A DNA stretch of 64,000 nucleotides. It comes from an uncultured Mycoplasmatota bacterium (lineage in GTDB: Bacteria; Bacillota_I; Bacilli_A; Izemoplasmatales; Izemoplasmataceae). The position numbers and the translations under genes are program-made. The DNA lies in the NCBI GenBank assembly GCA_913062645.1, contig CAJXVW010000001.1, forward strand, positions 310,001 to 374,000. Reading direction: 5' to 3'. Positions within the stretch are counted from its first letter, which is position 1. Each line of letters begins with the position of its first letter. Below, one piece after another: positions 14,565-63,824 of this stretch. A model generated the notes under the pieces. The model did no database searches. It was not told the DNA's origin and worked only from the letters and a program-made list of their open reading frames with translations.

Positions 14565-14611
14565 TTTGTGTTAATTTCATGAAAATTCATAAAAAATACA
14601 TATCACGGGTG

Positions 14612-14617
14612 TACAAT
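14612..14617 (+). promoter_or_regulatory. Probable -10 box of the repeat lipoprotein
   Basis: TACAAT about 45 bases ahead of the start. No good -35 at 17 bp; TTCATA at 14586-14591 has a 20-bp spacing. It overlaps an upstream in-frame ATG (14616), so that ATG cannot be the start on this transcript. Confidence 0.4.
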
Positions 14618-14660
14618 GAAGGTGTATAAGCAAAAATTATATAGAAAGAGGTGCACGAAT

Positions 14661-17600
14661 TTGAAACGAATGTTCACGCTCCTGCTCGGTGTGCTACTCG
14701 CACTTGGTCTGAGTGGATGCGATCTGTTTAATCCCGACGACGTATGTCCCGACGGCTACATTTTTGATGAAGACGCCGGGGAATGTGTTGAAGATGTGGA
14801 TCCGACAGACAACCAAGCTCCAACGATTACACTCAACGGTCCGGCATCCATTACGATCAGCGTTGGTACAGCGTACAATGACGCCGGCGCGACAGCGAAC
14901 GATCCAGAAGACGGCGATTTGACCGCCGACATCGTCGTCGTCAACCCTGTCAACACCGCTGTAGCAGGAAATTACACGATTACTTACAACGTATCGGACT
15001 CCGAAGGTTTGGCGGCACAACAAGTGACGCGAACCGTCATAGTCCAAGAAGAAGCGGTAAACAATTTGCCAACCATCACTTTGAATGGGGCTGCCACCAT
15101 CACGATCACCGTGGGGGACGCCTACAATGATCTGGGTGCTACCGCATCCGACGTGGAGGACGGCGACCTGACATCATCGATCGTCGTTGTCAACAATGTC
15201 AATCCGATGGTTGCGGGGAACTATACGGTAACCTACAACGTCACCGATGGCAATGGCGGTGCGGCCACGCAAGTGACCCGGACGGTCATCGTTCTGCCCT
15301 CCGATGCGCAATTGATTGCCGAACTCATCGTCGACAGCTTTGAAACATCTGGTGATATCCAGTTCCTGGCCCTCACCATGGCCAACATGGACTTCTCACA
15401 AGCGATGACGCTGACGACGGACTTTTACATGGAAATCAGCGAAGATGTTGATGAAACGCACTACATCAGTGCAATCGTGGAGGACAGTTATCTCTACGAT
15501 GAACTGGGCGACTCGATGCAACGGGTCGTCACCCTTGACGTGGATGGCGAACAGACCATCGAACTGACGGTCATTTTCGAAGAAGTAGCGACCGGCGTTC
15601 ATGTCTACATTCACTATGCACCGATCATCGACCTGATTACAATGCAGGACCCGGAAGTCGCCGACATGATTGGCTATGTTGGATTCGATGACGAATGGGC
15701 CCTGTTCCAGTTTGATGATTCGCTGCAAAACATCATCGAAATTCAAGTACTCAAGGACATGCTCGTATCCCTGTTCTTCAGTGAAGTAGGCGAGATGTTC
15801 TTCTATCAGCTGCAAGATGAGCTGGAAGCACAAATCGGTTTCGATCTGAACCAGTATGGCGTTGAATTCGGACAATTCATCGATTATCTGATCGAAGAAG
15901 ACTTCGACAGTGCCGAACTGCTTCTCCAAGGAATCGATGTCGACGGCATCGTCTTGCGACTCGATCACATGTACGTGGCGTATCAGCTCCGTCAGTTCTT
16001 CCTGATGTATGAAACCGAGTTAACCACCGCAGGATTCGACATCACCAGACTCGACCTGCTGGACACGGCGACATACGATGAGCTGAATGACGTCTGGAAC
16101 GTCAACCTGCCAATCGATCCGCTCGAAGGTTCGCAGGCATTCTTCGACAGCCTGTCCGAGACCGAACTCGACACCTTGATCGAAGTCGCCATCAAGCCGT
16201 TCATCGAAGGCATGGTATTTGAAGGGCTCACCAGTGACATCACTCCGGAATGGCTCGACAATGACCTTGGTGCGATTCTCCAGGGTGACCAGCAATTCTT
16301 CATCGACAACTGGCCGGAAGCCAGCGGCGCTTGGGATCAAGCGGCAGAACTGGCCGATCTGGCAAGCCTCGGTGCGGTCGAATACTGGAAACAACTGACT
16401 CAGGAAGAACGCGACGTCATCCGGTGGTCGCTAGACATGAACCACCATGGCTGGACCGTTTGGAGTCTGCGTGAGATTTATGAAAACGAATGGGATTACC
16501 AGTGGATGATTCGCCGCTACGAACATTTCTATGAAAATGAATGGATCACTGGTGATTTGAATGATTTGATCGTCAATCTGGAAACCTATCTGCTCAATAC
16601 CCACGGCGTCGTCGCCAACGACTGGCTTACCGAATTGAACGACATGGGTGGTATCGACTGGTATCTGAGTCTTGATCAGACCAGCCGCGACATCATGATC
16701 GATCTTGCGCAACAACCTGGTTACGAACAATGGGCTTGGGCCGTTTGGGACATGGAAATGGCCGCCAACGATCCGTGGCAATACCAGTGGCGTTTCACCG
16801 ATGGCCGGCACTGGCTCGATGAAGGCTGGATTCATGGTGATCTCGTCCAATTGATCAACAATCACTCCACATATCTGATGGACGAATATGGCATCGACGG
16901 TGGTGCACTGATTGCTGAAATTGATATGTATGGTGCTATCGATTGGTACTTCTTCCAAGCATCCGGCGATGTCAAGGATGCGCTTGATGAGATTTCCCGC
17001 TTCAACGACTACGAACTGCGTTGGGTCATCGACGAACTGCAGATGGTCGAAGAACGCCTCGATCAATACTTCTGGCGCTTCGGTCGTCCCGAAGAACTCT
17101 ATGACTTCTATTGGCTCAACAATGAACTTGATTGGCTGCTGTACTTCAATCAGGACTATCTGCAAACCACGTACGGCGTCGACGTCGATGCCTGGCGTGC
17201 CGACATCATGTATGGTGGAGCATTGCAGTGGTACGGCAACCTGAATGAAACCGAACGCGGTTATGTGGATGAGATTTCACAATTCGAACCAATGGATTAC
17301 CGTTGGCCGGTTGAGGTGCTCCAGCAACTCAACACTGGCGAAGGCGAGTTTGGAATCTGCCTCGGCAACTGGGATATGTGTCTGGAAGACCAGTGGGCTA
17401 CCGAAGACCTCGTTGGCTTGATCAACCAGCACTCCGATTGGTTGACGAACGACTATGGCTACGATGTCCCGGCGCTGATCAGTGACATTGAAATGTATGG
17501 CGCCATCGACTGGTATCTGTATTACGCCACCGAATGGGACCGTGAGGTTCTCGATGAACTGGCCCGTGCCAGCGAATGGCCGTACGAAGTCCTTTGGACC

Positions 17601-19172
17601 CTCGAAGATGCCCTTTGGCAGGAACAAGACCTGCTTGACTTCCTCACCGTGCACCAGAGTGAACTGGATGCAATCGGCTTCGACGCAACACAAAAAATCG
17701 CCGATCTGCAGATGTATGGTATTCAGGTGTTCATGAACGATTATCTGACACCGGACGACATTGCAATTCTCATGGACGAATACGTCTATCCGAAAATCGA
17801 TGGTCTGATCGATGCGATCAACACCAACGAAGTACCGGAATATCTGCTCAGCACGTTCTTCACTGATCCGCATGTCATCGCTGTGTTAGACAGTCTCGAT
17901 CCGACTCCGGAGTTCGATCCGTTCGATCTGATTCTGATCGATGATCTTGCTGCCAACATGATGGCGGTGGACTTCGATGCACTGGCTTTGGAAACGGTCG
18001 ACATGGAAGCACTCCTGACCGCAGTATACGAAGGTCAGACGGCGTATGACACATTCTTGACCAACATTGAGTTGACGGCTCCGAACAGTGTTCTGATTCT
18101 CGAACTCTTCAGTCCTGCCGTCGACACCATTCAGCCGTTCATGATCTATGTCGATGACATCAACTACGCATTTGAAGGTCTGTCGGTGTTTGAACACTAT
18201 CTCGACATGAGCTATTGGATGCAAGGCAACATGATGGACGTCGATGTCGAAGCCACCGACGACTGGTGGATTCTCACGACGATGCAGATGGATTCCATCA
18301 GTTATCAACTGCTTGTCGAAGACATCTTCGCCGACATTAACACGTACTTGTCCGGTTTCGAAACCTTGCCGTTCCCATTCGATGAGAACTGGGATTGCAT
18401 CGATCCTCTGGATACCGAGTGCAGCGACATCAGCGATGACATCAACAACATCAACGCAATTCTGACGCAACTCGGCACGATCGACATGCATGCCCTCTAC
18501 GATCCCTCTGATCCGACCTGGATGCAACTGGGACTCGATCTCACCGACTTCGCCGACGTCATCGTCAGTGGCGCTTATGATGATTTCCTCGATGACAACC
18601 CGGGCTATGTTCCGAACAATCAGGATGACATCTGGACCGGTGTCAACGAACTGTCCATTACCATCACCATGGACAGCGAAGGCATCATTACGATTCCGGC
18701 TGCTGCCGACGTGGACAATGCCAATGAGATCGCACAGGACCTCGGCAAGTTCGCCGTCAGCATGTTCGCCCGTGATTTCCTCCGTGAACTGGTCTGGTAC
18801 TACGAACAGAATCCATCCGAAATCGCCGATCTGACACAAACCAGCTATACACTCGCTGAGTTTGATCACATTATTCGTCTCTCGGCAGCGTTCGATCATG
18901 AGCTCTCGACCATCGGGGTTACCATCAATCCGCTGGATCCGACGAACCCACAGTTCAATCTCACGTTGTACTGGATCGATGGAACCGAAGCATTGAGTGG
19001 AACCGTCAGTCTGACCGACTTCCAAAGCAACTTCGACGAGTTCAACGAACTGACATCGGCTGCCGCCTTCCAGGCGATGGTCGGATACGTCAACGACGAC
19101 AATTTCCACATGTCGAAACTGTTCTTGATGCTGATGCTTCAGGAAGAGGAAGAATACTATCCGGAATACTGA
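14661..19172 (+). CDS. Giant surface lipoprotein with Ig-like domains and W-rich ~95-residue repeats
   Basis: 1,503 residues. A lipoprotein signal ends LGLSGC (Cys 20). Next comes a small Cys motif, CPDGYIFDEDAGEC, then two tandem DUF5011/HYR-like Ig domains (about residues 52-215, each with GATANDPEDGDLT or GATASDVEDGDLT and GNYTVTYNV). The rest matches no family I know. Its middle holds five repeats, each opening with W-x(3)-DL and containing YL-x(3)-YG, a G-A-I-DWY block and a W/Y-rich end. The opening Trp codons lie at 16251, 16542, 16827, 17112 and 17394, with a shortened unit at 17616. TTG at 14661 is chosen for the AGAGG at 14646-14650 and the signal peptide. Very acidic, rich in Asp, Trp and Tyr; a surface-binding role is inference. 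Confidence 0.85.
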   Translation: MKRMFTLLLGVLLALGLSGCDLFNPDDVCPDGYIFDEDAGECVEDVDPTDNQAPTITLNGPASITISVGTAYNDAGATANDPEDGDLTADIVVVNPVNTAVAGNYTITYNVSDSEGLAAQQVTRTVIVQEEAVNNLPTITLNGAATITITVGDAYNDLGATASDVEDGDLTSSIVVVNNVNPMVAGNYTVTYNVTDGNGGAATQVTRTVIVLPSDAQLIAELIVDSFETSGDIQFLALTMANMDFSQAMTLTTDFYMEISEDVDETHYISAIVEDSYLYDELGDSMQRVVTLDVDGEQTIELTVIFEEVATGVHVYIHYAPIIDLITMQDPEVADMIGYVGFDDEWALFQFDDSLQNIIEIQVLKDMLVSLFFSEVGEMFFYQLQDELEAQIGFDLNQYGVEFGQFIDYLIEEDFDSAELLLQGIDVDGIVLRLDHMYVAYQLRQFFLMYETELTTAGFDITRLDLLDTATYDELNDVWNVNLPIDPLEGSQAFFDSLSETELDTLIEVAIKPFIEGMVFEGLTSDITPEWLDNDLGAILQGDQQFFIDNWPEASGAWDQAAELADLASLGAVEYWKQLTQEERDVIRWSLDMNHHGWTVWSLREIYENEWDYQWMIRRYEHFYENEWITGDLNDLIVNLETYLLNTHGVVANDWLTELNDMGGIDWYLSLDQTSRDIMIDLAQQPGYEQWAWAVWDMEMAANDPWQYQWRFTDGRHWLDEGWIHGDLVQLINNHSTYLMDEYGIDGGALIAEIDMYGAIDWYFFQASGDVKDALDEISRFNDYELRWVIDELQMVEERLDQYFWRFGRPEELYDFYWLNNELDWLLYFNQDYLQTTYGVDVDAWRADIMYGGALQWYGNLNETERGYVDEISQFEPMDYRWPVEVLQQLNTGEGEFGICLGNWDMCLEDQWATEDLVGLINQHSDWLTNDYGYDVPALISDIEMYGAIDWYLYYATEWDREVLDELARASEWPYEVLWTLEDALWQEQDLLDFLTVHQSELDAIGFDATQKIADLQMYGIQVFMNDYLTPDDIAILMDEYVYPKIDGLIDAINTNEVPEYLLSTFFTDPHVIAVLDSLDPTPEFDPFDLILIDDLAANMMAVDFDALALETVDMEALLTAVYEGQTAYDTFLTNIELTAPNSVLILELFSPAVDTIQPFMIYVDDINYAFEGLSVFEHYLDMSYWMQGNMMDVDVEATDDWWILTTMQMDSISYQLLVEDIFADINTYLSGFETLPFPFDENWDCIDPLDTECSDISDDINNINAILTQLGTIDMHALYDPSDPTWMQLGLDLTDFADVIVSGAYDDFLDDNPGYVPNNQDDIWTGVNELSITITMDSEGIITIPAAADVDNANEIAQDLGKFAVSMFARDFLRELVWYYEQNPSEIADLTQTSYTLAEFDHIIRLSAAFDHELSTIGVTINPLDPTNPQFNLTLYWIDGTEALSGTVSLTDFQSNFDEFNELTSAAAFQAMVGYVNDDNFHMSKLFLMLMLQEEEEYYPEY
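16251..17838 (+). repeat. Tandem protein repeats, five full units plus one short
   Basis: Unit starts (Trp codons) at 16251, 16542, 16827, 17112, 17394 and 17616 give spacings of 291, 285, 285, 282 and 222 bases. All are multiples of three, so each change is a whole-codon insertion or deletion. The DNA has diverged well beyond the protein pattern, which points to old duplications kept by selection. Confidence 0.8.
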
Positions 19173-49865: not shown

Positions 49866-49876
49866 GCTCTTTTTTT
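49847..49876. terminator. Bidirectional terminator
   Basis: AAAAGAGCCTAC/GTAGGCTCTTTT stem around TCG between convergent genes, overlapping both stops. Confidence 0.88.
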
Positions 49877-52547
49877 ACGGGTTCAGAGATTCTTGCAGAT
49901 ACGTGTAGAACTCCTCCATGTTGACGATGACGTACTCGTCCGGATGGTTCTCGTCGAGCAACAACATGATGCGGTAAAAGTCGGTTGGGCTGAGCGAGAC
50001 GACCTCGCCGGGACCGGGTTCGGTCTTGTATTGTGACAAGGTGAAATCGTGGTCGAACACGACCCCGTAATACCCGACCACAAACTGATTGGGATCGTTG
50101 AGAATCTTGTGGTAGATCTCTTCGGCCTGGCCCATGTGCTGACCGATGAGATTGGTGAAGGTCGTTGTCACCGATGCCTCGGTGATGAGTTCGAACCCGC
50201 CTTCTGCGAAACTGGCGTCTTCGAGGTGAAACAGCCTCGTTTTGTCGAAATAAACGGAGATCACGGTTTCATCCAGCATCGAAGAGGATCGATCGACGCT
50301 GACGATCAGTTCGTGCGTTCCAATCGATGCGGCGACGCGTTCGTCGAGAACCAGTTCGGTTCCGCCGACGGTTTTGATCAACCGGATCGTCCCGCCGGAG
50401 ATTTCCACGGCATACCCATCCCCATTGGCCTGGGTGAAGAAGCGGATGACGGCTTCGTCGGTGGTGGTGCGAACCAGATCGGTCTGGATGTACCAGTAAT
50501 CACTGGATGTGGGTTGCTCGTAGCGATGGGAATCATGGACCGTCAGATTGTTGATGTTGACAAGTGAACTGTATCCGCGTCGCGGATAGAAGACGTTGCG
50601 CCGATTGTAAAACAGCATGTCGGACATGTAAATTGGGCCGGTCGGTTCCCAGGGGTTGATGCCGAACGCACCGGTGTAGCCGGATGCGATCAGATAGTCC
50701 CCGGTGAAGGTCGGACTGAACGTGTCACCGAACATGAACAGATCGTTGTAGGTGTCGACGTACGCTTGGTCGCTCGCTTGGAGGATCAGCTGGTTGTAGG
50801 CGACGATCGCGGCGACGGCATCGGATGGCATCTGGGTGTCGATGTCAACGTAACCGACACTGGAGGATCCGCCGCTGAAGAAATAGTCGTTGGTGGTCAT
50901 CGTGTCATAGGTGTATTTGGTGATGATCGGGAACTCGAGCGCGGTGACGCCGATATGCCCCCAGTTGATGGGGACCGATCCGCGGTAGGGATCGAGCCAG
51001 GAACCTTGTTGAAAGGTCATCGGGGCTTTGAAGGTGTCCCCCTCGCTGGCAAGGAATGTGACATACGTCTTGGTGGGGTCGTAGCCATCAAGGACGAATT
51101 CGCTTTTTTGGGTGAAGGTCTCGTCGACGGGGATGACATGATAGAGACTGAGGTTCTGATTGCCAACGGGATTCAACAGACCACCGTAGCGACCGACGAA
51201 ATCCAAACCGCTTCCTTCCTGATCGACCCAGCCATAGACACGGAAATAGACCGATTGCTCATCGAAGTACTCGCAGATGCGGGTGTAGAGTTCGTCATCG
51301 TAGGTTTCGTAGGTCGGCTTGAGATCGAAAAACATCATCTGTTGTTGGACCGCATAATCCATCGCTTCGCTGGTCAGTCCCATGAACTTGTCGGTGGCGA
51401 AGAGCTCCTTGAAGTTGTCGAACAGGAAACCATAGCCCTGTTGGGCGTTTGACACGTTGTAGAAATCGAAATTGTCGGAAATGTATCCGCTGAGTAGTAC
51501 GCCATTGAGTGTGAACGATTCGATCAGTTCGATGTCGAGCTGTTGTTCGGCTTGGTACAATACGCCTTCCGGCACCGGCATGTAGTAGGTGACGGCGGCA
51601 ATCATCGCCCCGAAATCAGCATCGCTGGCGACCCAGTTGTTGTAGCTCTTGTAGTCGTCGTTGATGGCGATGATGTCGGAAAAGTAGTGTTCGAACGTTG
51701 TCAGTATTTCAAGAAATGACGTAAGTTCGACGAACGTGTATCCTTCGTCTTCGATGTAGTCTTTCCAGATGGAGTCGGTATACGTATAATAGGCGTTGTT
51801 CAGATCGATGATCATCAAATTCGGTTGGTTGCGGTTGACGACCCCCTGGATCGCCTTGGCGGCGATGTGGTAGTCGTAATAGGCGGGGATGCTGGATTCC
51901 AGGATGTAGTAAATCACGCCGTCATCCACGTCGTCTACCGGATCGACGGGAACGAATGGTGTCTCGGTTAACTCGATCGCGAAGGTTTCACTGCTTTGAT
52001 TGCCGGAGGAATCGGTTGCCGTCACGACCACCTCATAGATTCCTGGTTCGTTGAAAATAACATTGTCAAAGTTGATGTTTTTTTCAATGTTCTCCAAGTT
52101 GTCGTAATTGTCTGTTATGGTGATTGCAGCAGTAATGTCGCTCACTGTGGCGGTATCGGGAAACTCGAGTGACGACATGGAAATGGATGGTGGATCGAAG
52201 TCGGCAACGACAATGTTGATGGTCCGTTGCGTGGTGTTGCCAGCGGCGTCCGTCAGTTCGAGAACGACAGGGTATGCATCCACTTCGTTTTGGTCAAAGC
52301 CGTCGTCATCGATCGATAGATCGGCGATTGTCAATGAGGTGTCGGTATCGTCATCTACCGTGAAGAGGTCACGGATTGCGAATGATGCATCGAATACATC
52401 GACCGTGATCACAAGATCATTCGTGACAACCTCACCTTGATACAAGATACGAGGAGGAGTGGTATCAAGAATGGGTTCCGTAGTGGGTTTGCAGGCGGTT
52501 AGAACCAGCAGCAGCAAGAGGGATACAATGACACTTCGATATCGCAT
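49875..52547 (-). CDS. GxGYxYP-like lipoprotein, putative glycoside hydrolase, with Ig-like domains
   Basis: 890 residues. Lipobox LTAC (Cys 19). Two HYR/DUF5011-like Ig domains (about 40-185) are followed by a large domain (about 195-640). That domain opens YDYHIAAKAIQGVVNRNQPNLMII, the pattern I associate with the N-terminus of GxGYxYP putative glycoside hydrolases, and contains VYGWVDQEGSGLDFVGRYGG and GSSSVGYVDID where the name-giving motif should be. The motif is degenerate: only the central Gly-Tyr remains. The C-terminus (about 690-850) is a LamG- or CBM-like sandwich. GAGGTG precedes ATG 52547. Surface polysaccharide binding or cleavage is likely. Confidence 0.6.
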   Translation of the reverse strand: MRYRSVIVSLLLLLVLTACKPTTEPILDTTPPRILYQGEVVTNDLVITVDVFDASFAIRDLFTVDDDTDTSLTIADLSIDDDGFDQNEVDAYPVVLELTDAAGNTTQRTINIVVADFDPPSISMSSLEFPDTATVSDITAAITITDNYDNLENIEKNINFDNVIFNEPGIYEVVVTATDSSGNQSSETFAIELTETPFVPVDPVDDVDDGVIYYILESSIPAYYDYHIAAKAIQGVVNRNQPNLMIIDLNNAYYTYTDSIWKDYIEDEGYTFVELTSFLEILTTFEHYFSDIIAINDDYKSYNNWVASDADFGAMIAAVTYYMPVPEGVLYQAEQQLDIELIESFTLNGVLLSGYISDNFDFYNVSNAQQGYGFLFDNFKELFATDKFMGLTSEAMDYAVQQQMMFFDLKPTYETYDDELYTRICEYFDEQSVYFRVYGWVDQEGSGLDFVGRYGGLLNPVGNQNLSLYHVIPVDETFTQKSEFVLDGYDPTKTYVTFLASEGDTFKAPMTFQQGSWLDPYRGSVPINWGHIGVTALEFPIITKYTYDTMTTNDYFFSGGSSSVGYVDIDTQMPSDAVAAIVAYNQLILQASDQAYVDTYNDLFMFGDTFSPTFTGDYLIASGYTGAFGINPWEPTGPIYMSDMLFYNRRNVFYPRRGYSSLVNINNLTVHDSHRYEQPTSSDYWYIQTDLVRTTTDEAVIRFFTQANGDGYAVEISGGTIRLIKTVGGTELVLDERVAASIGTHELIVSVDRSSSMLDETVISVYFDKTRLFHLEDASFAEGGFELITEASVTTTFTNLIGQHMGQAEEIYHKILNDPNQFVVGYYGVVFDHDFTLSQYKTEPGPGEVVSLSPTDFYRIMLLLDENHPDEYVIVNMEEFYTYLQESLNP

Positions 52548-52566
52548 AAAAACACCTCGGTTAAGA

Positions 52567-52583
52567 ATGGAAAAATTTTCCAT
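52567..52583. promoter_or_regulatory. Perfect palindrome in the leader of the GxGYxYP-like gene
   Basis: ATGGAAAAATTTTCCAT, perfect 8-bp arms around one base, 20 bases upstream of the start codon and downstream of the promoter. Either an operator or a small RNA hairpin. Confidence 0.55.
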
Positions 52584-52607
52584 TTTTGAATTGATTAAGT
52601 CAATGCC

Positions 52608-52636
52608 ATTATATATGAAATATAGAAAAGAGTAAA
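52608..52636 (-). promoter_or_regulatory. Promoter of the GxGYxYP-like gene
   Basis: Minus strand: TTTACT (52636-52631), 17-bp spacer, TATAAT (52613-52608). Confidence 0.6.
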
Positions 52637-52824
52637 GACAAACCGAAAATAAGAAACAGAAATTGTGGAGTTCGCAAGACATGGTCAAATGATCAAAAAA
52701 GTAGTTCATATACGAATTACATGAAGCTCTATTTAGAATAAATATGGCTTTGTTGTGTGTTTTAAGTGTTGTGGAATATATTTTCATATTTTTTTTATTT
52801 ACAAAATAATATTTCCAAAACATA

Positions 52825-54947: not shown

Positions 54948-55039
54948 GAAATTGTAAATATTTTTGATAAATTGAAACAAAATTGGTAAAAAATTCCAAA
55001 AAAATCACAAGTGGTCACACTCATAGGAGGAAAACAGGA

Positions 55040-56890
55040 ATGAAGAAATTATTACTGCTTGGCAGCGCCTTGGCACTGGCTCTGACGCTCGCCGCCTGCA
55101 ACGGCAACGACACACCGGAAGTCAACTGTGAACTGACACCGGATGCCCCGGAATGTCAAGAACCCGTTGAATGCGAAACGGGATATCATGAAGAAGACGG
55201 CGAATGCGTGCCGGATGCCGTGGAATGCGAAACCGGCTACCACGAAGAAAACGGCGAATGCGTCCCTGACGCACTCGAATGCGAAACCGGATATCACGAA
55301 GAGGATGGGGAATGCGTACCCGACGATGTGGAAGATACCACCCCACCGGTCATCACCGTCGACTCCTTGTTGCCCGTCATTTTTGACGAAGGCACGGCCG
55401 AGCCGGATTGGACAACGTACTTCTCGACCGACGATGCAACGGCAACCCTGACGGTCGATGCCGCCAGCGCCGACATGGATACCGTTGGTTCGTTCATCGT
55501 CTCGGCGACGGCGACCGATCCCGCCGGCAACACGGCCGTCCGCGATCTCGTCATCACGATTCAGGCCATCGTCATTCCGTTTGGCGACTGCGATCCGAAC
55601 TTCCCGGCCGAAGAAGTCGTTCTCGATTTCGAAGGGGAACCGATTCGCTTTGCAACGTGGATGCGCAACTTCCTCGATCCGTTCTATCTGTTTGCCAAAC
55701 AAACGGAGTTGAACGCGCAGAAGAAGACGTGTTTCACCCGTGCCGAAAACGAGCACGACACGGCCATCGAATGGGTCTCCTACTTCAATGACCTGAATCA
55801 TTACAACGAAATCATCCAAGCCCAGATCGACGGCGCACACAACGCCGATCTGTATAACATCAACTCCCATTATCTTGGCATTCTGGCACGAGCCGGAGCA
55901 ATCAAACCGATCACCCAGTATGTCGAACAGTACTTCCCTGAGTATTACTGGGAATCCAATCTTCAGGTCGGTACTTGGGATGGCGAAATCTACGGGTTCT
56001 GGAACGAACGTCAGAACGTCAACATGACGATTTATGTCAACCTTGATCTGATCGAAGAATACTCGCAAGTCAATCCGGCCGAACTATGGCAGGACGGCGA
56101 GTGGGACTGGGACGCCTTCACGACGATGGCGGCCGAAGTCAAAGCCAACGCTCCGGAAGACTTCAAGATTTTCGGCATCAACCCGCTTCAGGCCGGCATG
56201 TACTTCATCGGTTCCAACGGCGGCAAGACGATCGATCCCTACACCAATGAGTTCATGTTCGACGATCCCAAGACCGTCCGCGCGCTCGAGTTCATCCAGA
56301 CGCTGACCGAACAAGAGTACATCTGGTTCTCCGAAGACGGCACCGACACCGCGACTCGCGCGGAGTTCACCTCCGGCAACATGCTGTTCTACTTCGGCAG
56401 TGACTGGATCAGTGGCGACAGCTCAATCTTGAAACCAGGTTCGGCCGTCCAGTTCACACTCGGCATGACCCCCTTCCCGGTTGGTCCCGATGTCACTTCG
56501 ATCGCAACCGAATATCGCCTGCCGATCACCGTCGGCAACCTGTGGGTCGTTCGTGGTGACGCGACTGATGCGGAGGCGGAAGCCTATGTGCAATTCTTCA
56601 GCAACATCATCCCCTGGGGCGACGATGTCGAACAGGACTTCCGTTATTACAAGACGATGGAAGACCACACCGACGATCTCACCAGTTTGGAAGCATACAT
56701 CAGCATCTCACGCTTCGGTTACTTCGAAAAGACCTATCTCTTCGAGCTGGCCTGGGGTGACGATCTCACACCTGGCATCGGCAACCTGTACGGCGACATC
56801 GCCGGTGGCGCATCCATCAGCGCCACGTTGGACGCCGCGCTCGCCGCACTCGAAGCGAAACGCGACGAGGCACTCGGCATTACCGAATAA
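55040..56890 (+). CDS. Sugar ABC transporter solute-binding lipoprotein with Cys-rich repeats and Ig-like domain
   Basis: 616 residues. Lipobox LAAC (Cys 20). Then three 18-residue repeats (about 43-96, pattern ECETGYHEExGECVPDx), an Ig-like HYR domain (about 98-180) and a full family 1 solute-binding domain (about 190-616). The last has WNERQNVNMTIYVN, GEWDWDAFTTMAAEVKAN and FTSGNMLFYFGSDW, typical of CUT1 receptors. Extra surface modules before the receptor are unusual and may form a disulfide-bonded stalk. AGGAGG precedes ATG 55040. Terminator-like hairpin follows. Confidence 0.85.
   Translation: MKKLLLLGSALALALTLAACNGNDTPEVNCELTPDAPECQEPVECETGYHEEDGECVPDAVECETGYHEENGECVPDALECETGYHEEDGECVPDDVEDTTPPVITVDSLLPVIFDEGTAEPDWTTYFSTDDATATLTVDAASADMDTVGSFIVSATATDPAGNTAVRDLVITIQAIVIPFGDCDPNFPAEEVVLDFEGEPIRFATWMRNFLDPFYLFAKQTELNAQKKTCFTRAENEHDTAIEWVSYFNDLNHYNEIIQAQIDGAHNADLYNINSHYLGILARAGAIKPITQYVEQYFPEYYWESNLQVGTWDGEIYGFWNERQNVNMTIYVNLDLIEEYSQVNPAELWQDGEWDWDAFTTMAAEVKANAPEDFKIFGINPLQAGMYFIGSNGGKTIDPYTNEFMFDDPKTVRALEFIQTLTEQEYIWFSEDGTDTATRAEFTSGNMLFYFGSDWISGDSSILKPGSAVQFTLGMTPFPVGPDVTSIATEYRLPITVGNLWVVRGDATDAEAEAYVQFFSNIIPWGDDVEQDFRYYKTMEDHTDDLTSLEAYISISRFGYFEKTYLFELAWGDDLTPGIGNLYGDIAGGASISATLDAALAALEAKRDEALGITE
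55166..55327 (+). repeat. Three 54-bp tandem repeats encoding 18-residue Cys motifs
   Basis: Units at 55166, 55220 and 55274. Protein identity is nearly complete while many third codon positions differ, so the protein sequence is under selection. Confidence 0.85.
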
Positions 56891-56908
56891 CAACCGACAC
56901 GCAATGGC

Positions 56909-56941
56909 ATCAAATCGGGGGTGTTCCACTCCCGATTTGAT
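56909..56941 (+). promoter_or_regulatory. Strong intercistronic hairpin
   Basis: ATCAAATCGGG/CCCGATTTGAT, perfect 11-bp stem, with only a weak T-rich tail. Likely protects the receptor mRNA or reduces read-through to the downstream genes. Confidence 0.65.
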
Positions 56942-56964
56942 CCACTTTCTTTTGAGGTGATGAT

Positions 56965-59853
56965 ATGAAAAAGGCACTGATCATCGGACTGCTCCTGTTG
57001 GGCATGGTGCTCGTCGGAGCAACCTTCGAACCGCTGGATGCATCGCCCAACCGGGTGGAGTACGTTCAGCCATCGACCATCGACGCAGCATCGTCCTATG
57101 ATGCGTATTTGCTGGGAGAACCGCATCGTCCCGACCGCACGTATGTGCTGGACGCCAGTCATTTTCGTCCGGGCCAAAGCAGCGGGTTCACCATCGTTCC
57201 GTCGTTGGACGGCGAGAGCAATGTGATCACGGGTGACGATCAAGGCACGCTCACATACCAATTCTTCAACGAGGAAGCCGGGTTCTACAACATACTCGTC
57301 CGGTACTACCCCGTGGAAGGCAAGAGCGGCAGCATCGAACGCAACATCCTGATCAATGGTGAAAGTCCCTACGACGTGGCCGAGCAGGTCGAGTTCAAAC
57401 GAATCTGGACCAATCTCACGAATGACTTCCTGACCGATCAGAGCGGTAACGAGATCGTCCCCAAACAGGTCGAATCGCCGCGCTGGATCGAATCGACGGT
57501 TCATGATCGCAACGGGTATTATGAGGAGAGCTTGCTCTTCTATTTTGAATATGGTTTCAACACCATCGGTCTCGAAGCCGTCCGCGAACCGATCGCCATT
57601 GCCCACCTCAAAGTGTTTCAGGAGCCCGAGGTTCCGAGTTACGACGACTATCGCGCCGTAGAGCGTAACAATGCTGCCCCGGCGGATTTTATCGCCATCA
57701 CGCAGGGGGAGCACATGTACGAAAAAACCGCACCGACCCTGTATCCGATCGTTGATCGGACGAGTCCGATCACCGAGCCACAACATCATGCGAAACTGTT
57801 GCTCAATGCCGGTGGAGGCATCAATTACCGGTTGGTCGGTGACTGGATCAGTTATCAGTTCACCGTTCCCGAAGATGGCTATTACAACATCAGCATGCGC
57901 TACAAACAGACCTATCTGCGTGGGGCGTACGTCACACGTCATGTGACCATTGACGGTGAAACGCCGTTTGCGGAACTGGAGCGCACGACCTTCGGATACA
58001 CCAACTGGGACATGCGCACCTTCGGTGACGACGAACCCTATGACATCTATCTCGAAGCTGGAACGCACACGATCGCATTCGAAATCGTGCTCGGTGACTT
58101 CACCGACAGCATTCGTCAAATCGAAGGCGTCATAGACAATCTCAACGACATCTATCGTCAGATCATTCAGATCACTTCGACAACACCGGACATCTACCGC
58201 GACTATCAGCTGACGGAGAAAATCCCCGACATGCTGGAGGTCTTCGAACATGAAATGAACACCATCAACGCGGTGGTCGACGAACTCTACGCGACCACCG
58301 GCGAAAACAGCGACAAGCTGGTTGCACTGACGCAGATCGCGATTCAGCTGCAAGGGTTTGTCGAAAAACCACAGACCATCCATCAGCGCCTCGGCGAGTT
58401 CCGCAACAATGTATCGGCGCTCGGAACTTGGATTCTCACCATCAAGGAACAACCGCTCGCCATTGATTACATCGCCGTTCACGGCGCCAGTGCGGATCTG
58501 CCGCGCACCAATGCCAACTTCTTCGAGAAGATGTGGTTTGAACTGAAGAGCTTCATCGCCAGTTTCTACGTCGATTACAACAGTCTGTCGACGACCGCCG
58601 ATGGAGAAACCCAGGACAGCATCACCGTGTGGGTTGGCACCGGTCGCGATCAGGCCAACGTCATCCGTCGGCTGATCGATGAATCGTTCACGCCCGAAAC
58701 GGGCATCGGTGTCAATCTCGAACTTGTCAATCCCGGTGTGCTGTTGCCGGCAACCTTCACCAACCAAGGCCCCGACGTCATGCTCGGCGCTGGCAATACG
58801 ACACCTGTCAATTATGCGATGCGCAATGCCGTGCACGACCTCTCGACATTCGATGATTTCGATGAGGTGATGAGCCAGTTCAAGGATTCGGCGATCCTCC
58901 CCTACGAATTTGAGGGTGGCGTGTACGCGATGCCGGAGACACAAATCTTCCCGGTCTTGTTCTATCGCACCGACATCATGACCGAAATCGGCATCATCCC
59001 CGCCGATGCCGACGAGGAGTTCTGGTACAACTTCACCTGGGACGATGTCATCGACATGATTCCCGAACTGCAGCGTCTCAACTTGGAGTTCTATCTCCCG
59101 ATCGACATCGTCGAACAGCAGCTCGGCGGGATCATCCCGCCGAATCTCGTGTATGTCAGTCTGCTCTATCAAAACGGTGGCGAACTGTACAGCGACGATG
59201 CCAGAACCTCGCTTCTGCAGGAACGCGTCGCCGTGGAAACGTTCCAGACCTGGTCGAGTTTCTACACCAACTACCGGTTCAGCATCCAGGCCAACTTCGT
59301 CAACCGGTTCCGTACCGGTGAGATGCCGATTGGAATCTCGTATTACAGCATGTACAATACACTCAGCGTGTTCGCACCGGAGATTTCCGGCGACTGGACG
59401 TTCGTACCCATTCCCGGAACCCCGCAGCAAGACGGTTCGGTCGATCATTCGACCACGGCCACCGGCACGGGCACGATGATCATGAACAATTCAGACCAGA
59501 AAGACCTTGCCTGGAGGTTCTTGAAATGGTGGGGCAGCGAGGACACGCAAGTCAGTTTCGGTCGTGAAATGGAAGGCATCATGGGTGCCGCCGCGCGCTA
59601 TCCGACGGCCAACGTCGCCGCGCTCGAAAAACTGCCGTGGCCGTCGCGCGACATCGATATCCTGCTCACCCAGTGGGACGATGTCAAAGGCATCCCCGAA
59701 ATCCCCGGCAGTTACATCACCGGCCGCTATCTCGACAACTCGCTCCGGCGTGTCATCAACACCGGTGCGAATCCCCGTGAAACCCTGTACGAGTACGCCG
59801 AACTGATCAACGATGAAATCACCAACAAACGCGAAGAATTCAATCTGGACTAG
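56965..59853 (+). CDS. Fusion: two carbohydrate-binding-like domains plus solute-binding domain
   Basis: 962 residues. Signal or anchor helix (about 4-20) without a lipobox Cys. Two CBM6/35-like beta-sandwich modules (about 45-215 and 245-380; the repeated pattern is GxYNIxxRYxxxxGxxxxRxxxIDGExPF). A helical linker follows (about 385-510), then a family 1 solute-binding domain (about 535-950; GGVYAMPETQIFPVLFYRTDIM, TWDDVIDMIPELQ, FRTGEMPIGISYY). It precedes the permease genes and so is the second receptor of one transporter. GAGGTGATGAT precedes the ATG. Confidence 0.8.
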   Translation: MKKALIIGLLLLGMVLVGATFEPLDASPNRVEYVQPSTIDAASSYDAYLLGEPHRPDRTYVLDASHFRPGQSSGFTIVPSLDGESNVITGDDQGTLTYQFFNEEAGFYNILVRYYPVEGKSGSIERNILINGESPYDVAEQVEFKRIWTNLTNDFLTDQSGNEIVPKQVESPRWIESTVHDRNGYYEESLLFYFEYGFNTIGLEAVREPIAIAHLKVFQEPEVPSYDDYRAVERNNAAPADFIAITQGEHMYEKTAPTLYPIVDRTSPITEPQHHAKLLLNAGGGINYRLVGDWISYQFTVPEDGYYNISMRYKQTYLRGAYVTRHVTIDGETPFAELERTTFGYTNWDMRTFGDDEPYDIYLEAGTHTIAFEIVLGDFTDSIRQIEGVIDNLNDIYRQIIQITSTTPDIYRDYQLTEKIPDMLEVFEHEMNTINAVVDELYATTGENSDKLVALTQIAIQLQGFVEKPQTIHQRLGEFRNNVSALGTWILTIKEQPLAIDYIAVHGASADLPRTNANFFEKMWFELKSFIASFYVDYNSLSTTADGETQDSITVWVGTGRDQANVIRRLIDESFTPETGIGVNLELVNPGVLLPATFTNQGPDVMLGAGNTTPVNYAMRNAVHDLSTFDDFDEVMSQFKDSAILPYEFEGGVYAMPETQIFPVLFYRTDIMTEIGIIPADADEEFWYNFTWDDVIDMIPELQRLNLEFYLPIDIVEQQLGGIIPPNLVYVSLLYQNGGELYSDDARTSLLQERVAVETFQTWSSFYTNYRFSIQANFVNRFRTGEMPIGISYYSMYNTLSVFAPEISGDWTFVPIPGTPQQDGSVDHSTTATGTGTMIMNNSDQKDLAWRFLKWWGSEDTQVSFGREMEGIMGAAARYPTANVAALEKLPWPSRDIDILLTQWDDVKGIPEIPGSYITGRYLDNSLRRVINTGANPRETLYEYAELINDEITNKREEFNLD

Positions 59854-59862
59854 GTGATGGGC

Positions 59863-60789
59863 ATGAAAACCGTAACGTTCACCAAAGAAGAGAAGAAACG
59901 CCGACGACAAGTGGAATTTCAGAAGAACAAGCCACTCTATCTTCTGATGAGTCCGTATTTCGTCTTGTTCTTCGTCTTCACGGTGTTGCCGGTCGTCACG
60001 TCGATTCTGCTCAGCTTCTCCTACTTCAACATGCTCGAACTGCCGACGTTCGCCGGATGGGACAACTACCGCAAGCTGTTCTTCGAGGACGACGTGTTCA
60101 TGGTCGCCGTCAAGAACACCTTCATGTTCGCCATCATCACCGGTCCGATCGGGTACTTCGCAGCGTTTTTGTTCGCCTGGCTCGTCAATGAACTCAAACC
60201 GAAAATCCGCGCCTTCATGACGCTTGTCTTCTACGCCCCTTCGATCAGCGGTGGCGCCTACATCATCTGGAAACTGATGTTTTCCGGTGACGTGTACGGC
60301 TATCTCAACGCCACGCTCATCAACTGGGGAATCATCACCGAACCGATTCAGTGGCTTCAGAATCCGTCCTACATCCCCGTCATCATCATCATTGTGCAAC
60401 TGTGGATGAGCCTCGGGGTCAGCTTCCTCGCCTTTGTCGCCGGCTTGCAGTCGGTCGACCGCAGTCTCTATGAAGCGGGCGCCGTCGACGGCATCCGCAA
60501 TCGCTGGCAGGAACTATGGTACATCACCCTGCCCAGCATGAAACCGCAACTGATGTTCTCGGCCGTAATCCAGATCACCGCCTCGCTGGCGATCGCCGAA
60601 GTGGCGATGCAGGTCGCGGGCTTCCCGTCCGTCGAGAACGCCGGTCATACGATTGTCACCCATCTCATCTATCACGGTACCACCAAATTTGAACTCGGTT
60701 ACGCCAGCGCCATCGCGACGGTGTTGTTCATCGTCATGCTCGGTAGCAATCTGCTGGTGCAGAAGTTCCTCCGAAGGGTGGGAACCTGA
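59863..60789 (+). CDS. CUT1 sugar ABC permease, UgpA/MalF-like
   Basis: 308 residues, six membrane helices. N-terminal basic cytoplasmic stretch, PYFVLFFVFTVLPVVTSILLSF first helix, and the EAA loop YEAGAVDGIRNRWQELWYITLPSM near 205. Start: GTG 59854, ATG 59857 and ATG 59863 are in frame; 59863 is best spaced from AGGTGATG. Partner of the next gene. No ATPase is encoded nearby. Confidence 0.92.
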   Translation: MKTVTFTKEEKKRRRQVEFQKNKPLYLLMSPYFVLFFVFTVLPVVTSILLSFSYFNMLELPTFAGWDNYRKLFFEDDVFMVAVKNTFMFAIITGPIGYFAAFLFAWLVNELKPKIRAFMTLVFYAPSISGGAYIIWKLMFSGDVYGYLNATLINWGIITEPIQWLQNPSYIPVIIIIVQLWMSLGVSFLAFVAGLQSVDRSLYEAGAVDGIRNRWQELWYITLPSMKPQLMFSAVIQITASLAIAEVAMQVAGFPSVENAGHTIVTHLIYHGTTKFELGYASAIATVLFIVMLGSNLLVQKFLRRVGT

Positions 60790-60790
60790 C

Positions 60791-61693
60791 ATGAACAATG
60801 CCAATGTGTTTACCCGCTCCGTCAAATGGTTCGTCCGTCTGATCCAGCCGAAGAATTCGCTCAATCGCAGTGTTTGGGGCGATCTCGTGCTGATTTTCGC
60901 ATTGCTTCTGTTCGGCACCTTCTCGGCATATCCGATGATCTTCATCATCAACAACGCCTTCAAGCCGTTCAATGAGATCTTCATTTTCCCGCCGAAGCTG
61001 TTCGTTCGGAACCCGACCCTCGACAACTTCATCGATTTGATCAACCTGATGGCGGACAGTTGGATTCCGATCACGCGCTACGTGTTCAACACGTTGTTCA
61101 TCACCATCGTCGGAACCGTCGGTCACGTCATTCTCGCATCGATGGCGGCGTATCCGCTGGCCAAACACACGTTCCGGGGCAGTGAAGCACTCAACAAGAT
61201 CATCGTCTACAGCCTGATGTTCAACGCCACCGTCACGGCCATCCCCGGTTACGTGATCATGAGCGAGCTCGGTCTCGTCGACACGTACTGGGCGATCATT
61301 TTGCCGGCATTCGCGTTCAGTCTCGGATTGTATCTGATGAAGAACTTCATGGTTCAGATTCCGACGCTGTACATCGAGAGCGCGTTCATCGACGGTGCGT
61401 CGCACTACCAGATCTTCTGGAAAATCGTCATGCCGCTTGTCAAACCGGCATGGCTGACCCTCACCATCCTTTCGTTCCAGACACTATGGGGAGCAACGGG
61501 AGGACAATACATCTACGATGAATCACTCAAACCGCTCAGTTTCGCCCTCGGACAGATCGTCGGCGGAGGCATCGGGCGGACCGGTGTCGTCGCAGCCGTC
61601 AGTCTGTTCATGATGGTCGTACCGGTAATCGTGTTCATCATCAGCCAGTCGTCCATTATTCAGACGATGGCGCATTCGGGAATCAAGGAGTGA
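60791..61693 (+). CDS. CUT1 sugar ABC permease, UgpE/MalG-like
   Basis: 300 residues, six membrane helices. The MalG-type EAA loop IESAFIDGASHYQIFWKIVMPLVKPAW is near 196-222. The N-terminus has the FSAYPMIFIINNAFKPFNEIF pattern of the family. ATG 60791 lies one base after the previous stop with GGGTGGGA upstream. Transport substrate is presumably an oligosaccharide, judging from the CBM-bearing receptor. Confidence 0.92.
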   Translation: MNNANVFTRSVKWFVRLIQPKNSLNRSVWGDLVLIFALLLFGTFSAYPMIFIINNAFKPFNEIFIFPPKLFVRNPTLDNFIDLINLMADSWIPITRYVFNTLFITIVGTVGHVILASMAAYPLAKHTFRGSEALNKIIVYSLMFNATVTAIPGYVIMSELGLVDTYWAIILPAFAFSLGLYLMKNFMVQIPTLYIESAFIDGASHYQIFWKIVMPLVKPAWLTLTILSFQTLWGATGGQYIYDESLKPLSFALGQIVGGGIGRTGVVAAVSLFMMVVPVIVFIISQSSIIQTMAHSGIKE

Positions 61694-61698
61694 TCGCG

Positions 61699-63153
61699 AT
61701 GAAAAAAATCACGCTTGCGATCCTCGTCGTGCTGACGCTCGTGCTCCCCAATCTCGTCACGGTCAGCGCATCGTACAACTACAACGACTGGCAGCAGCCG
61801 GTCCCGTCGCAAGACGGCTACAAGGTCAAGGAGAACGGCATCGTCAGCGGCAGCGACATCGACATCACGCTCGCGACGGACGAGGCACCGGTGCACTTGT
61901 CCGGCATGCAGGATTTGTTCGTCACAGCGACCAACTACTACATCGTCGACAATGCCGCGGCGCGCATCGCCGTCCTCGACAAGGACATGAACGTCGTCCA
62001 CGTGCTCGGTGAGTTCACCGTCGATCAAGATGGCACGGACGTGGTGGAAACGTTCGTCGATCCCCGCGGTATCTACGTCACGGAAGATGGCGAACTGTAT
62101 GTCACCGATTTCGAGCGGCAGCAGATTCTCGTTTTCGATGACGATTATCGGCTGGTCGAGATCATCGGCAAACCGGATCACCCGACGTATGGCGATCGCG
62201 AATTCAAGGTCAAGAAAATCGTTCTTGATCGCACCAAACGAATCTACGTCACCGTCGGCAACGTCTATGACGGCATCGTCGAGATGACCAGCGGCGGCGA
62301 GTTCAGCCGCTTCTACGGCGTGCAGCAGGTGCAAACCAATCCGATCGACTTGTTGTGGCGGCGTCTGATGACGCAGGAACAGCTGGCCCGTACGGTGTTG
62401 TTCCTGCCGGTCGAATACACCAACATGGCGATCGATCCCGAAGGGTTCATCTACGCGACCGCAACGAGCGATTCGCAGACCCCGATCCAACGACTCAATC
62501 CCAAAGGCACCGATGTCCTCCGCAAAAATGGTTATGTGGCACCGATCGGCGACATTGTTCGGCTGCCCGATCAGGACCGCAGCAACTTCGTCGCAATCAC
62601 CGTCAACGAGTACGGCATGTACACGGCGGTCGATCGTGCCAACAAGAAACTCTTCACCTACAACGACGAAGGCTATCTGATCTATGTCACCGGTCAGGAA
62701 GGCGAACTCAAGGGGAACTTCAAGTATCCTACCGATGCCGCCTATGACGGGGAGGATCTGATTGTCCTCGACAGCGAACTCAATACCATCACGTTGATGG
62801 AACCGACCGCCTTCGGTACGATGGTGAACGAAGCGATCCAACTGTCCTATCAAGGTGAATACCTCAACATCACCAATCTCTGGGAAGACATCATCGCCGA
62901 GAACTCGAACTTCTCGTATGCCTATGTCGGCATCGGCAACGCATTGTTCCGCGACAAGGATTACGAGGCGGCGATGACCGCCTATGAACTCGGTTTCGAT
63001 CGCGACGGCTATTCCAAGGCGTACGAACAGTACCGCAAGGAACTGCTGCGCGACAACTTCCCGATCATCGGCTTTTCCGCGATGGCGGTCATCGGGATTC
63101 TGATCATCCGCCCGATCGTCGTCGATCTCAGGCAGAAAGGAGGAGCGGCGTGA
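61699..63153 (+). CDS. NHL-type beta-propeller/TPR protein, membrane-anchored at C-terminus
   Basis: 484 residues: signal peptide (about 1-22), six-bladed NHL-like propeller (about 50-385; blade motifs DPRGIYVTEDGELYVTDFERQQILVF, YPTDAAYDGEDLIVLDSELNTI), a TPR-like helical pair (about 400-450; AYVGIGNALFRDKDYEAAMTAYELGF) and a C-terminal membrane helix with basic tail. ATG 61699 follows AAGGAGTG. It lies in the transporter operon and overlaps the next gene by four bases. Extracellular sugar binding or a scaffold role are possible; no catalytic site recognised. Confidence 0.75.
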   Translation: MKKITLAILVVLTLVLPNLVTVSASYNYNDWQQPVPSQDGYKVKENGIVSGSDIDITLATDEAPVHLSGMQDLFVTATNYYIVDNAAARIAVLDKDMNVVHVLGEFTVDQDGTDVVETFVDPRGIYVTEDGELYVTDFERQQILVFDDDYRLVEIIGKPDHPTYGDREFKVKKIVLDRTKRIYVTVGNVYDGIVEMTSGGEFSRFYGVQQVQTNPIDLLWRRLMTQEQLARTVLFLPVEYTNMAIDPEGFIYATATSDSQTPIQRLNPKGTDVLRKNGYVAPIGDIVRLPDQDRSNFVAITVNEYGMYTAVDRANKKLFTYNDEGYLIYVTGQEGELKGNFKYPTDAAYDGEDLIVLDSELNTITLMEPTAFGTMVNEAIQLSYQGEYLNITNLWEDIIAENSNFSYAYVGIGNALFRDKDYEAAMTAYELGFDRDGYSKAYEQYRKELLRDNFPIIGFSAMAVIGILIIRPIVVDLRQKGGAA

Positions 63154-63824
63154 ACCACACGATGAAACGCACCGCGGACATCCTCCGCAAGTATGCCCAT
63201 GTGTTCTACAAAGAGTTCATCCAGTTTCCCTTCTATGTCCTGACCCATCCGATCGACGGGTTCTACGAGATGAAACGATACCACCGCGGACTCCTCAAGG
63301 TGGCGACGTTCTATCTCGTCATCGAGGCCACCCTCGGCATCCTTCAGTATCGGTACACCGGCTTTTTGTTCAACAATTTCAATCCCGCGACCTTCGACTA
63401 CATCCGGCAGATTCTCGTCACCGTCAGTCCATATGCGGCCTTCATCGTCGCCAACTGGGCGATCACGACGTTGATGGACGGCAAAGGGTCGATCAAGGAC
63501 ATCTACAATGTCGTCGGCTACGCGCTGTTTCTCAAGGTGTGGCTGTCGATCGCCAACATCTTTTTGTCCAACGTGTTTACGATGGACGAAGCATTCTTCT
63601 ATTACGGCATCGAGACGTTTGGCTACGTCGTGATGTTGTTTCTGGTGTTCATGGGGGTACTCACCATCCATGAATACTCGCTCTCCAAGGCGGTGCTGAC
63701 CATCATCCTCACCGTCGTGGTGATCGGCGTGATCGTATTCCTCGGTCTGTTGACGTTCTCGCTGATCCAGCAAATCTATGTCTTTCTCGTCACGATCTAT
63801 CGTGAGATCATCCTGAGGCTCTGA
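63150..63824 (+). CDS. Yip1-like multi-span membrane protein
   Basis: 224 residues: basic amphipathic N-terminus, then five or six membrane helices. HPIDGFYEMKRYHRG near 29-43 is the P-x-x-G-F-x-x-M-x-x-x-x-x-G pattern at the start of Yip1 domains; INDIYNVVGYAL-like text appears near 118 as the second conserved part. GTG start overlaps the previous stop (GTGA) with GGAGGAG upstream. Such genes recur next to propeller and CUT1 genes in Gram-positives, to my recollection; role unknown. Confidence 0.7.
   Translation: MNHTMKRTADILRKYAHVFYKEFIQFPFYVLTHPIDGFYEMKRYHRGLLKVATFYLVIEATLGILQYRYTGFLFNNFNPATFDYIRQILVTVSPYAAFIVANWAITTLMDGKGSIKDIYNVVGYALFLKVWLSIANIFLSNVFTMDEAFFYYGIETFGYVVMLFLVFMGVLTIHEYSLSKAVLTIILTVVVIGVIVFLGLLTFSLIQQIYVFLVTIYREIILRL

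Follow-up and report, generated by a model that had tools for sequence, protein, structure and literature searches.

A predicted cysteine-hairpin module of variable copy number beside the membrane anchors of surface proteins in an uncultured Izemoplasmataceae bacterium

Among the closest described systems is SGBP-lev, a surface glycan-binding lipoprotein of Bacteroidetes, for which N-terminal Ig-like domains are reported in the sections of the source that deal with this protein (PMC7618045). MYXO-CTERM tails, in the part of the source that defines them, have an invariant Cys ahead of a transmembrane helix and end in basic residues (PMC11980579). Here we analyze a receptor lipoprotein encoded in a 64,000-nucleotide stretch of DNA (the window) from an uncultured member of the Izemoplasmataceae, whose genome comprises 1.99 Mb in two contigs. 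To our knowledge, the height at which receptors and hydrolases stand above the bare membrane of bacteria without peptidoglycan has been little studied.

The receptor gene has an AGGAGG site at 55025-55030 upstream of its ATG start, and its lipobox (LAAC) was called by motif. The gene and those that follow it are laid out as follows:

55040-56890 (+): whole lipoprotein, 616 aa, with lipobox, C-x8-C pair, three C-x10-C units, Ig-like domain and SBP_bac_8 receptor
55040-55099 (+): signal peptide and lipobox LAAC, lipid-anchor Cys at residue 20 (C20), from the translation
55127-55156 (+): C-x8-C pair in NCELTPDAPEC, its first Cys 10 residues past the lipid Cys
55166-55219 (+): Cys unit 1, VECETGYHEEDGECVPDA, predicted β-hairpin
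55220-55273 (+): Cys unit 2, VECETGYHEENGECVPDA, predicted β-hairpin
55274-55327 (+): Cys unit 3, LECETGYHEEDGECVPDD, predicted β-hairpin
55334-55573 (+): Ig-like domain, residues about 99-178, from a weak HYR match, AlphaFold2, Foldseek/VIA-align and conservation in the homologue L027
55607-56887 (+): substrate-binding receptor domain, SBP_bac_8/SBP_bac_1, from Pfam matches and homologue comparison
56965-59853 (+): second SBP, 962 aa, with a CBM35-like N-terminal region (below cut-off) and SBP_bac_1; no Cys
59854-60789 (+): ABC permease, UgpA/MalF-like
60653-61693 (+): ABC permease, UgpE/MalG-like, true start probably further in
61690-63153 (+): NHL/TPR-repeat protein of the operon, with homologues in L149 and L148
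63150-63824 (+): Yip1-domain membrane protein of the operon, with homologues in L149 and L148

The first-pass annotation had placed three 18-residue units at 55166-55327 and an Ig-like domain in front of the receptor, and these coordinates are exact; the C-x8-C pair directly before the units was absent from it. Similar pairs follow the lipobox in L032, L037, L039, L042, L090 and L094. Within each unit of 18 residues the two Cys are spaced exactly 11 positions apart (C-E-T-G-Y-H-E-E-[DN]-G-E-C-V-P-D). The receptor domain scores 63.5 bits against SBP_bac_8 (cut-off 27) and 53.9 bits against SBP_bac_1 (cut-off 26), and with a lipobox Cys and two BPD_transp_1 permeases in the operon the protein has the features of a CUT1-like ABC solute-binding lipoprotein. 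The permeases are of the sugar (Ugp/Mal) type, with equivalog cut-offs not reached. As judged from sequence, the window protein is a nutrient or sugar receptor with a putative role in sugar delivery.

As a whole, 55040-63824 is a tandem-SBP sugar transporter operon that recurs in the same genome (L149) and in G002 (L148), and that was found in part at a contig end of G003 (L147); at all three loci a homologue of the 962-aa SBP adjoins a related receptor. Upstream, on the opposite strand, 49875-52823 (-) encodes 982 aa in one frame, whose matches are a putative glycoside hydrolase domain (GxGYxYP) and, weakly, Ig-like domains; this suggests a carbohydrate locus.

We measured the spacer between anchor and receptor. 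About 170 residues separate C20 from the receptor core (about residue 190), and 215 separate the lipid Cys from the first Pfam-aligned receptor residue. In four genomes of the genus there are 28 SBP_bac_8 matches, 21 with a recognizable lipobox in the DNA analyzed; for these 21 the anchor-to-domain distance has a median of 40 and exceeds 100 in four, all of which are receptors of the window's kind. The earlier statement that CUT1 receptors are usually short-linked and that a spacer of about 170 residues is unusual thus holds in this genus.

The DNA of the units was analyzed for age and selection. Pairwise identity among the three is 77.8-81.5%, with one to three amino-acid-changing codons per pair. 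In a test that covers 54 bases in three copies, and so gives moderate evidence, 15 sites vary and 12 of these are third codon positions (P=2.9e-4 in a binomial test with one third expected), in agreement with the first-pass proposal that selection conserves the repeats as protein while their codons differ. The pairwise differences observed (10, 12 and 12) are what one obtains by drawing codons at random for these residues (means 9.3, 10.6 and 11.5), so synonymous sites look saturated; it follows that the units did not duplicate recently and that their amino-acid sequence has been preserved. These figures bear on the possibility that the units are a tandem array that does little or nothing, expands and contracts freely, and is tolerated in the flexible linker behind the lipobox. 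Young slippage would not be expected to leave unit DNA at 78-82% identity, with synonymous changes saturated and the protein nearly invariant, and a neutral repeat would also sit poorly with the nearly constant C-x10-C spacing, the Cys parity across unrelated proteins and the presence of the same module at the opposite end of C-anchored proteins. We consider neutrality decidedly unlikely, although the copy numbers described next speak for it.

Among the contigs of named genomes the receptor has a sole match, L027, from the Acholeplasmataceae MAG DLM2.Bin120, 62% identical in the receptor part. At 1e-40 the 61 relatives (own genome included) gave no match except the window's own, and at 1e-25 the 90 genomes of the order gave one further receptor match, in a different genus (G035). 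The whole receptor had no match in phages and the stalk none in plasmids; an own-genome match at C2:429742 (a 77-aa frame with a stop) was excluded. Six receptors were compared: those of the window, L027, the own paralogue (L028/L149), the congener G003, G002 and G035. The Ig domain is found in 6/6 and Cys units in 4/6, the number of units before the Ig domain being 3, 0, 2, 1, 0 and 1, respectively; the paralogue, G003 and G035 each have one Cys hairpin behind the Ig domain too. The nearest homologue, L027, retains the Ig domain and both receptor Cys (C231, and C184 just upstream of the domain, codon 55589-55591) with zero Cys units, so the units are dispensable there; since G002 likewise has the Ig domain without units, only the Ig domain is constant. 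Of the architecture to be sought in relatives, Cys units with an Ig domain are thus present in the paralogue, G003 and G035, and the Ig domain alone in L027 and G002. A range of zero to three copies, with zero in the closest homologue, is what freely varying repeats could produce, and this freedom of copy number also fits neutral drift. A recent accident in one strain is ruled out by the units and Ig domain of the paralogue, G003 and G035: the feature is older than the strain and is part of a lineage-wide module.

That module extends far beyond receptors. A position-blind profile of two units gave 14 matches in 10 proteins of the own genome and matches in 21 of 395 class genomes (E≤0.001); the window stalk alone, used as query, matched in 6 of 61 relatives (E≤0.01). 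No anchor-proximity filter was used to select the 10 proteins, and in all 10 the units adjoin a membrane anchor. Nine have them directly behind the lipobox, and the tenth, a GHL10 hydrolase, has six units directly before a C-terminal GCF, transmembrane helix and basic end; the closest Cys of a unit or C-x8-C pair lies 7-12 residues from the anchor Cys. Three weaker own carriers, counted outside the 10, likewise adjoin a lipobox (L031, found by single-protein query; L033 and window 14583-19172, found by weak match or by eye). Across the genus, the anchor-to-unit distance is 6-14 residues in the 24 of 25 carriers that were scored, the 25th (window 14583-19172) having a C-x12-C unit, which fell outside the script's count; the profile matches G003:C130 and G003:C91 were left out of the carriers read. 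The frame at 14583-19172 encodes a 1529-aa lipoprotein in which one degenerate C-x12-C unit directly follows the lipobox. It also has two domains that match Bact_surface_Ig-like (132 bits); a large remainder has no Pfam match, and the C-terminus resembles, by eye, those of L037 and L039.

The carriers have unrelated folds, including SBPs and the GHL10 hydrolase and, by eye, 5'-nucleotidase-like, fasciclin-like and esterase-like proteins. C-anchored carriers have units at the C-terminal side: six in the own GHL10 protein, four in a G002 pullulanase, three in a G001 pullulanase and two in a GHL10-like protein of G159 (named by eye). Outside the genus, units lie near an anchor in G159 (C-terminal), G057, G176 and G375. 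Other units lie away from anchors: in G012 (L085) some 90 residues separate them from the lipobox, in L033 one stands between the propeller and the Trx-like domain, and in L028 one is found behind the Ig domain; f13 genomes have long tandem arrays with no anchor visible nearby in the pieces read. A filter that displays single units only near a lipobox or CF tail returned no carrier in L061, L063 and L086. Many surface proteins of the genus that are otherwise unrelated have the same hairpins next to their membrane anchors, so the hairpins look like reusable spacers. The first-pass view of the units as a peculiarity of an ABC receptor does not survive this comparison: most SBPs of the genus have no units and many non-SBPs do, so a CUT1-receptor feature is ruled out in favor of a module common to many anchored proteins. 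In the proteins scanned, no Pfam or NCBIfam model matched the unit above its cut-off, and among the papers listed by literature searches none describes this module in title or abstract.

Could the units be small binding modules, for glycans, divalent cations or adhesion to a matrix, so that the stalk serves to capture substrate or to attach the cell? Cations or positively charged surfaces would then be the ligands of the acidic hairpins, and the stalk is indeed strongly acidic, with 27 acidic (D/E) and no basic (K/R) residues in 76. Many carriers are carbohydrate-active or nutrient-acquiring, and animal EGF-like and TIL-like hairpins often mediate binding. However, unit position follows the anchor and not the class of enzyme or receptor, several carriers have just one unit, no more than about 12 residues from the lipid, which is a poor place for binding, and across 13 unit pairs invariance or near-invariance is confined to the C, G and V columns. 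A binding role is therefore unlikely in our judgment.

A spacer role is favored by what replaces the units in other proteins. In L038 (1216 aa) and L035 (1491 aa), a domain of the window's Ig type (42-45% identical over the domain) stands directly before the same C-terminal tail, with no Cys units there; Cys hairpins and Ig domain thus occupy one anchor-proximal position, and in the window receptor both are present, in series. This apparent interchange, read from the sequences, is the strongest argument that the units serve as spacers. The C-x10-C spacing, nearly constant beside variable linkers, and a unit count that differs among receptors while the Ig domain stays, point the same way. The tail itself (GC[FG], then a transmembrane helix, then basic residues) forms the C-terminus of large surface proteins across several families of the class (C-terminus of L028:11395-15789, L035, L038, L041, L127, L130-L136, L138-L140). 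The 20 loci read from a tail search comprised 14 GC tails, one GFFSS tail (L137) and five apparent chance matches; as the query contained the end of a Cys unit, nearby units are over-represented among them. When 10 tails were scanned, three passed the generic LPXTG-anchor model only and none passed MYXO-CTERM, and sortase was found in 0 of 15 genomes among those with tails. In the C-anchored L028 GHL10 protein, L035 and L038, the tail Cys is left over once the remaining Cys are counted in pairs.

Structure modeling had been suggested as a check on the proposed disulfides. The AlphaFold2 stalk model, from an alignment of only two sequences, supports a hairpin per unit (strands at model residues 30-33/36-39, 48-51/54-57 and 66-69/72-75; pLDDT about 72-81, and about 85-93 for the Ig domain), while disulfide formation is something we infer. 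In the full-length model, also from two sequences, confidence over the receptor is low (mean pLDDT 40), and no substrate was deduced from it. Foldseek and VIA-align matched the stalk model to Big_3, InlK, Rib and PKD-type folds and to the Bacteroidetes lipoprotein BT2262; for InlK the VIA-align Z was 9.4 (75 residues, 1.7 Å) and for a Big_3 domain 8.8 (90 residues, 5.6 Å). These matches fall for the most part on the Ig domain (model residues 78-158) and are not extended to the hairpins, and a shared fold shows no function. As modeled, the window domain has an Ig-type β-sandwich, with sequence scores below the Pfam cut-offs (HYR 16.6, cut-off 21.7; InlK_D3 11.9, cut-off 25); the own paralogue L028 passes Bact_surface_Ig-like at 74.3 bits (cut-off 27). 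When the sequences in the PDB were searched with a profile built from two receptor sequences, nothing matched at 1e-5.

The Cys pattern, with constant spacing and even totals, fits structural pairing. The window protein has 10 non-anchor Cys, and the number is even in 19 of 25 genus carriers, or in 20 of 25 when an L041 Cys upstream of the first Met is dropped; because units are pairs by construction, the informative part of this parity is the Cys outside them. If the Cys instead formed a redox- or metal-responsive surface switch, they would not be structural staples, and the redox equipment of the cell gives this some encouragement. A search for VKOR gave 0 of 395 class genomes, own included (3 of 14 control genomes match), and the sole Thioredoxin_4 protein of the own genome, which we take to be cytosolic and FrnE-type, has no signal peptide; the VKOR and Thioredoxin_4 searches thus returned no standard extracytoplasmic thiol oxidase and no exported DsbA-type match. 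The carrier L033 in addition joins a unit to a Trx-like domain with CDFC (Pfam Thioredoxin E=0.035, below cut-off). Against a switch, two Cys 11 positions apart without a His/Cys cluster make a poor metal site, the carriers have no evident common regulation, and mostly even Cys counts suit structural pairing, so that we regard it as highly improbable.

L033:2586-5048 (G000:C1 about 186585-189047) is a PF09826 beta-propeller lipoprotein with one Cys unit behind the lipobox and a second before the C-terminal Trx-like domain, a candidate surface thiol oxidoreductase. Thioredoxin_4 had seemed to follow the module within the order, as an exported DsbA partner might; this was dropped on a wider sample, where it occurs in 44 of 395 class genomes, many without the module, and none of six proteins read has a signal peptide. 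Oxidation by the environment or by an unrecognized enzyme is possible. A cultured relative, if Izemoplasma is the right lineage, is described as strictly anaerobic in the part of the source concerned with it (PMC8397711), and by analogy this does not favor disulfides.

Based on these observations, we propose, with a probability of about 0.6, that the Cys units are a lineage-specific, anchor-proximal stalk module of variable copy number, presumably stapled by disulfides. Units and Ig domain would together form a membrane-proximal stalk, in which each 18-residue unit is a small β-hairpin whose C-x10-C Cys are probably joined outside the cell. Stapled hairpins of this kind are predicted to make a protease-resistant, acidic and fairly stiff rod, which the Ig domain would prolong and which would carry the sugar receptor. 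The likely benefit is that the stalk would keep the receptor off the bilayer with the permeases still in reach. The cell that bears it is probably without a peptidoglycan wall, as suggested by related orders, with which the homologue L027 links this genome and which lack a cell wall according to the relevant parts of the sources (PMC10868615, PMC8397711), and by the sortase result. Hydrolases and receptors alike have the hairpins beside their anchors, whether these are N-terminal lipids or C-terminal transmembrane helices, and the number of hairpins would change easily. What speaks against a stalk, besides the oxidase searches, the anaerobic relative and the free copy number, is that the units are dispensable in L027 and that some lie away from anchors (L033, L028, G012, f13).

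More tentatively, and with the odds against it, the hairpins and the Ig domain may be an uncatalogued kit of interchangeable, length-tunable stalks in probably wall-less Bacilli, served by two anchor types, the lipobox and a sortase-independent GC[FG] tail whose lone Cys is perhaps lipidated, and taking over the spacing role that the cell wall has in Gram-positive relatives. A unit count that varies among homologues, beside either anchor, offers a direct handle on receptor reach, uptake and shedding. If the stalk is real, it also raises the question of how cells without a recognized extracytoplasmic thiol oxidase form disulfides outside.

How does the module compare with known systems? The window Ig domain is like the Bact_surface_Ig-like, Big_3, HYR and Rib spacers of Gram-positive surface proteins in its predicted Ig-type β-sandwich, and unlike them it falls below every Pfam cut-off. 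The C-x-x-G-[YF]-...-C hairpin of the unit resembles the last loop of TIL, cEGF and EGF_MSP1_1 domains, and the carrier L029 has below-cut-off matches of this kind (TIL 23.0 bits against 24.5); a weak PDB match to MSP-1 was also obtained (E=0.08). The window units themselves gave no TIL or EGF-like Pfam match at E≤1. TIL and EGF-like domains have several Cys pairs, with three or more disulfides per domain, whereas the window unit has one Cys pair per 18 residues. The CPSGYxLxGxxC proteins of f13 (L057, L060, L066) share the C-x10-C spacing, the G-Y behind the first Cys and the profile, and differ in their long arrays, longer lysine/threonine-rich linkers and lack of a visible adjoining anchor in the pieces read. 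GC[FG] tails resemble MYXO-CTERM, as outlined in its source (PMC11980579), in the invariant Cys before a transmembrane helix and the basic end, but the one match listed is 12.2 bits (cut-off 15.85) and the phylum is different. SGBP-lev, in the sections that describe it, offers the same order of lipid anchor, Ig-like domain(s) and a glycan-binding domain that reaches out from the membrane transporter; it belongs to an outer-membrane SusCD system, and Cys hairpins are not mentioned in those sections (PMC7618045), whereas the domain carried by the window Ig domain is an ABC substrate-binding protein, and the cell is probably wall-less. Spacer domains beneath surface lipoproteins are known, and the 18-residue unit, found at both types of anchor, looks like a new variant of them.
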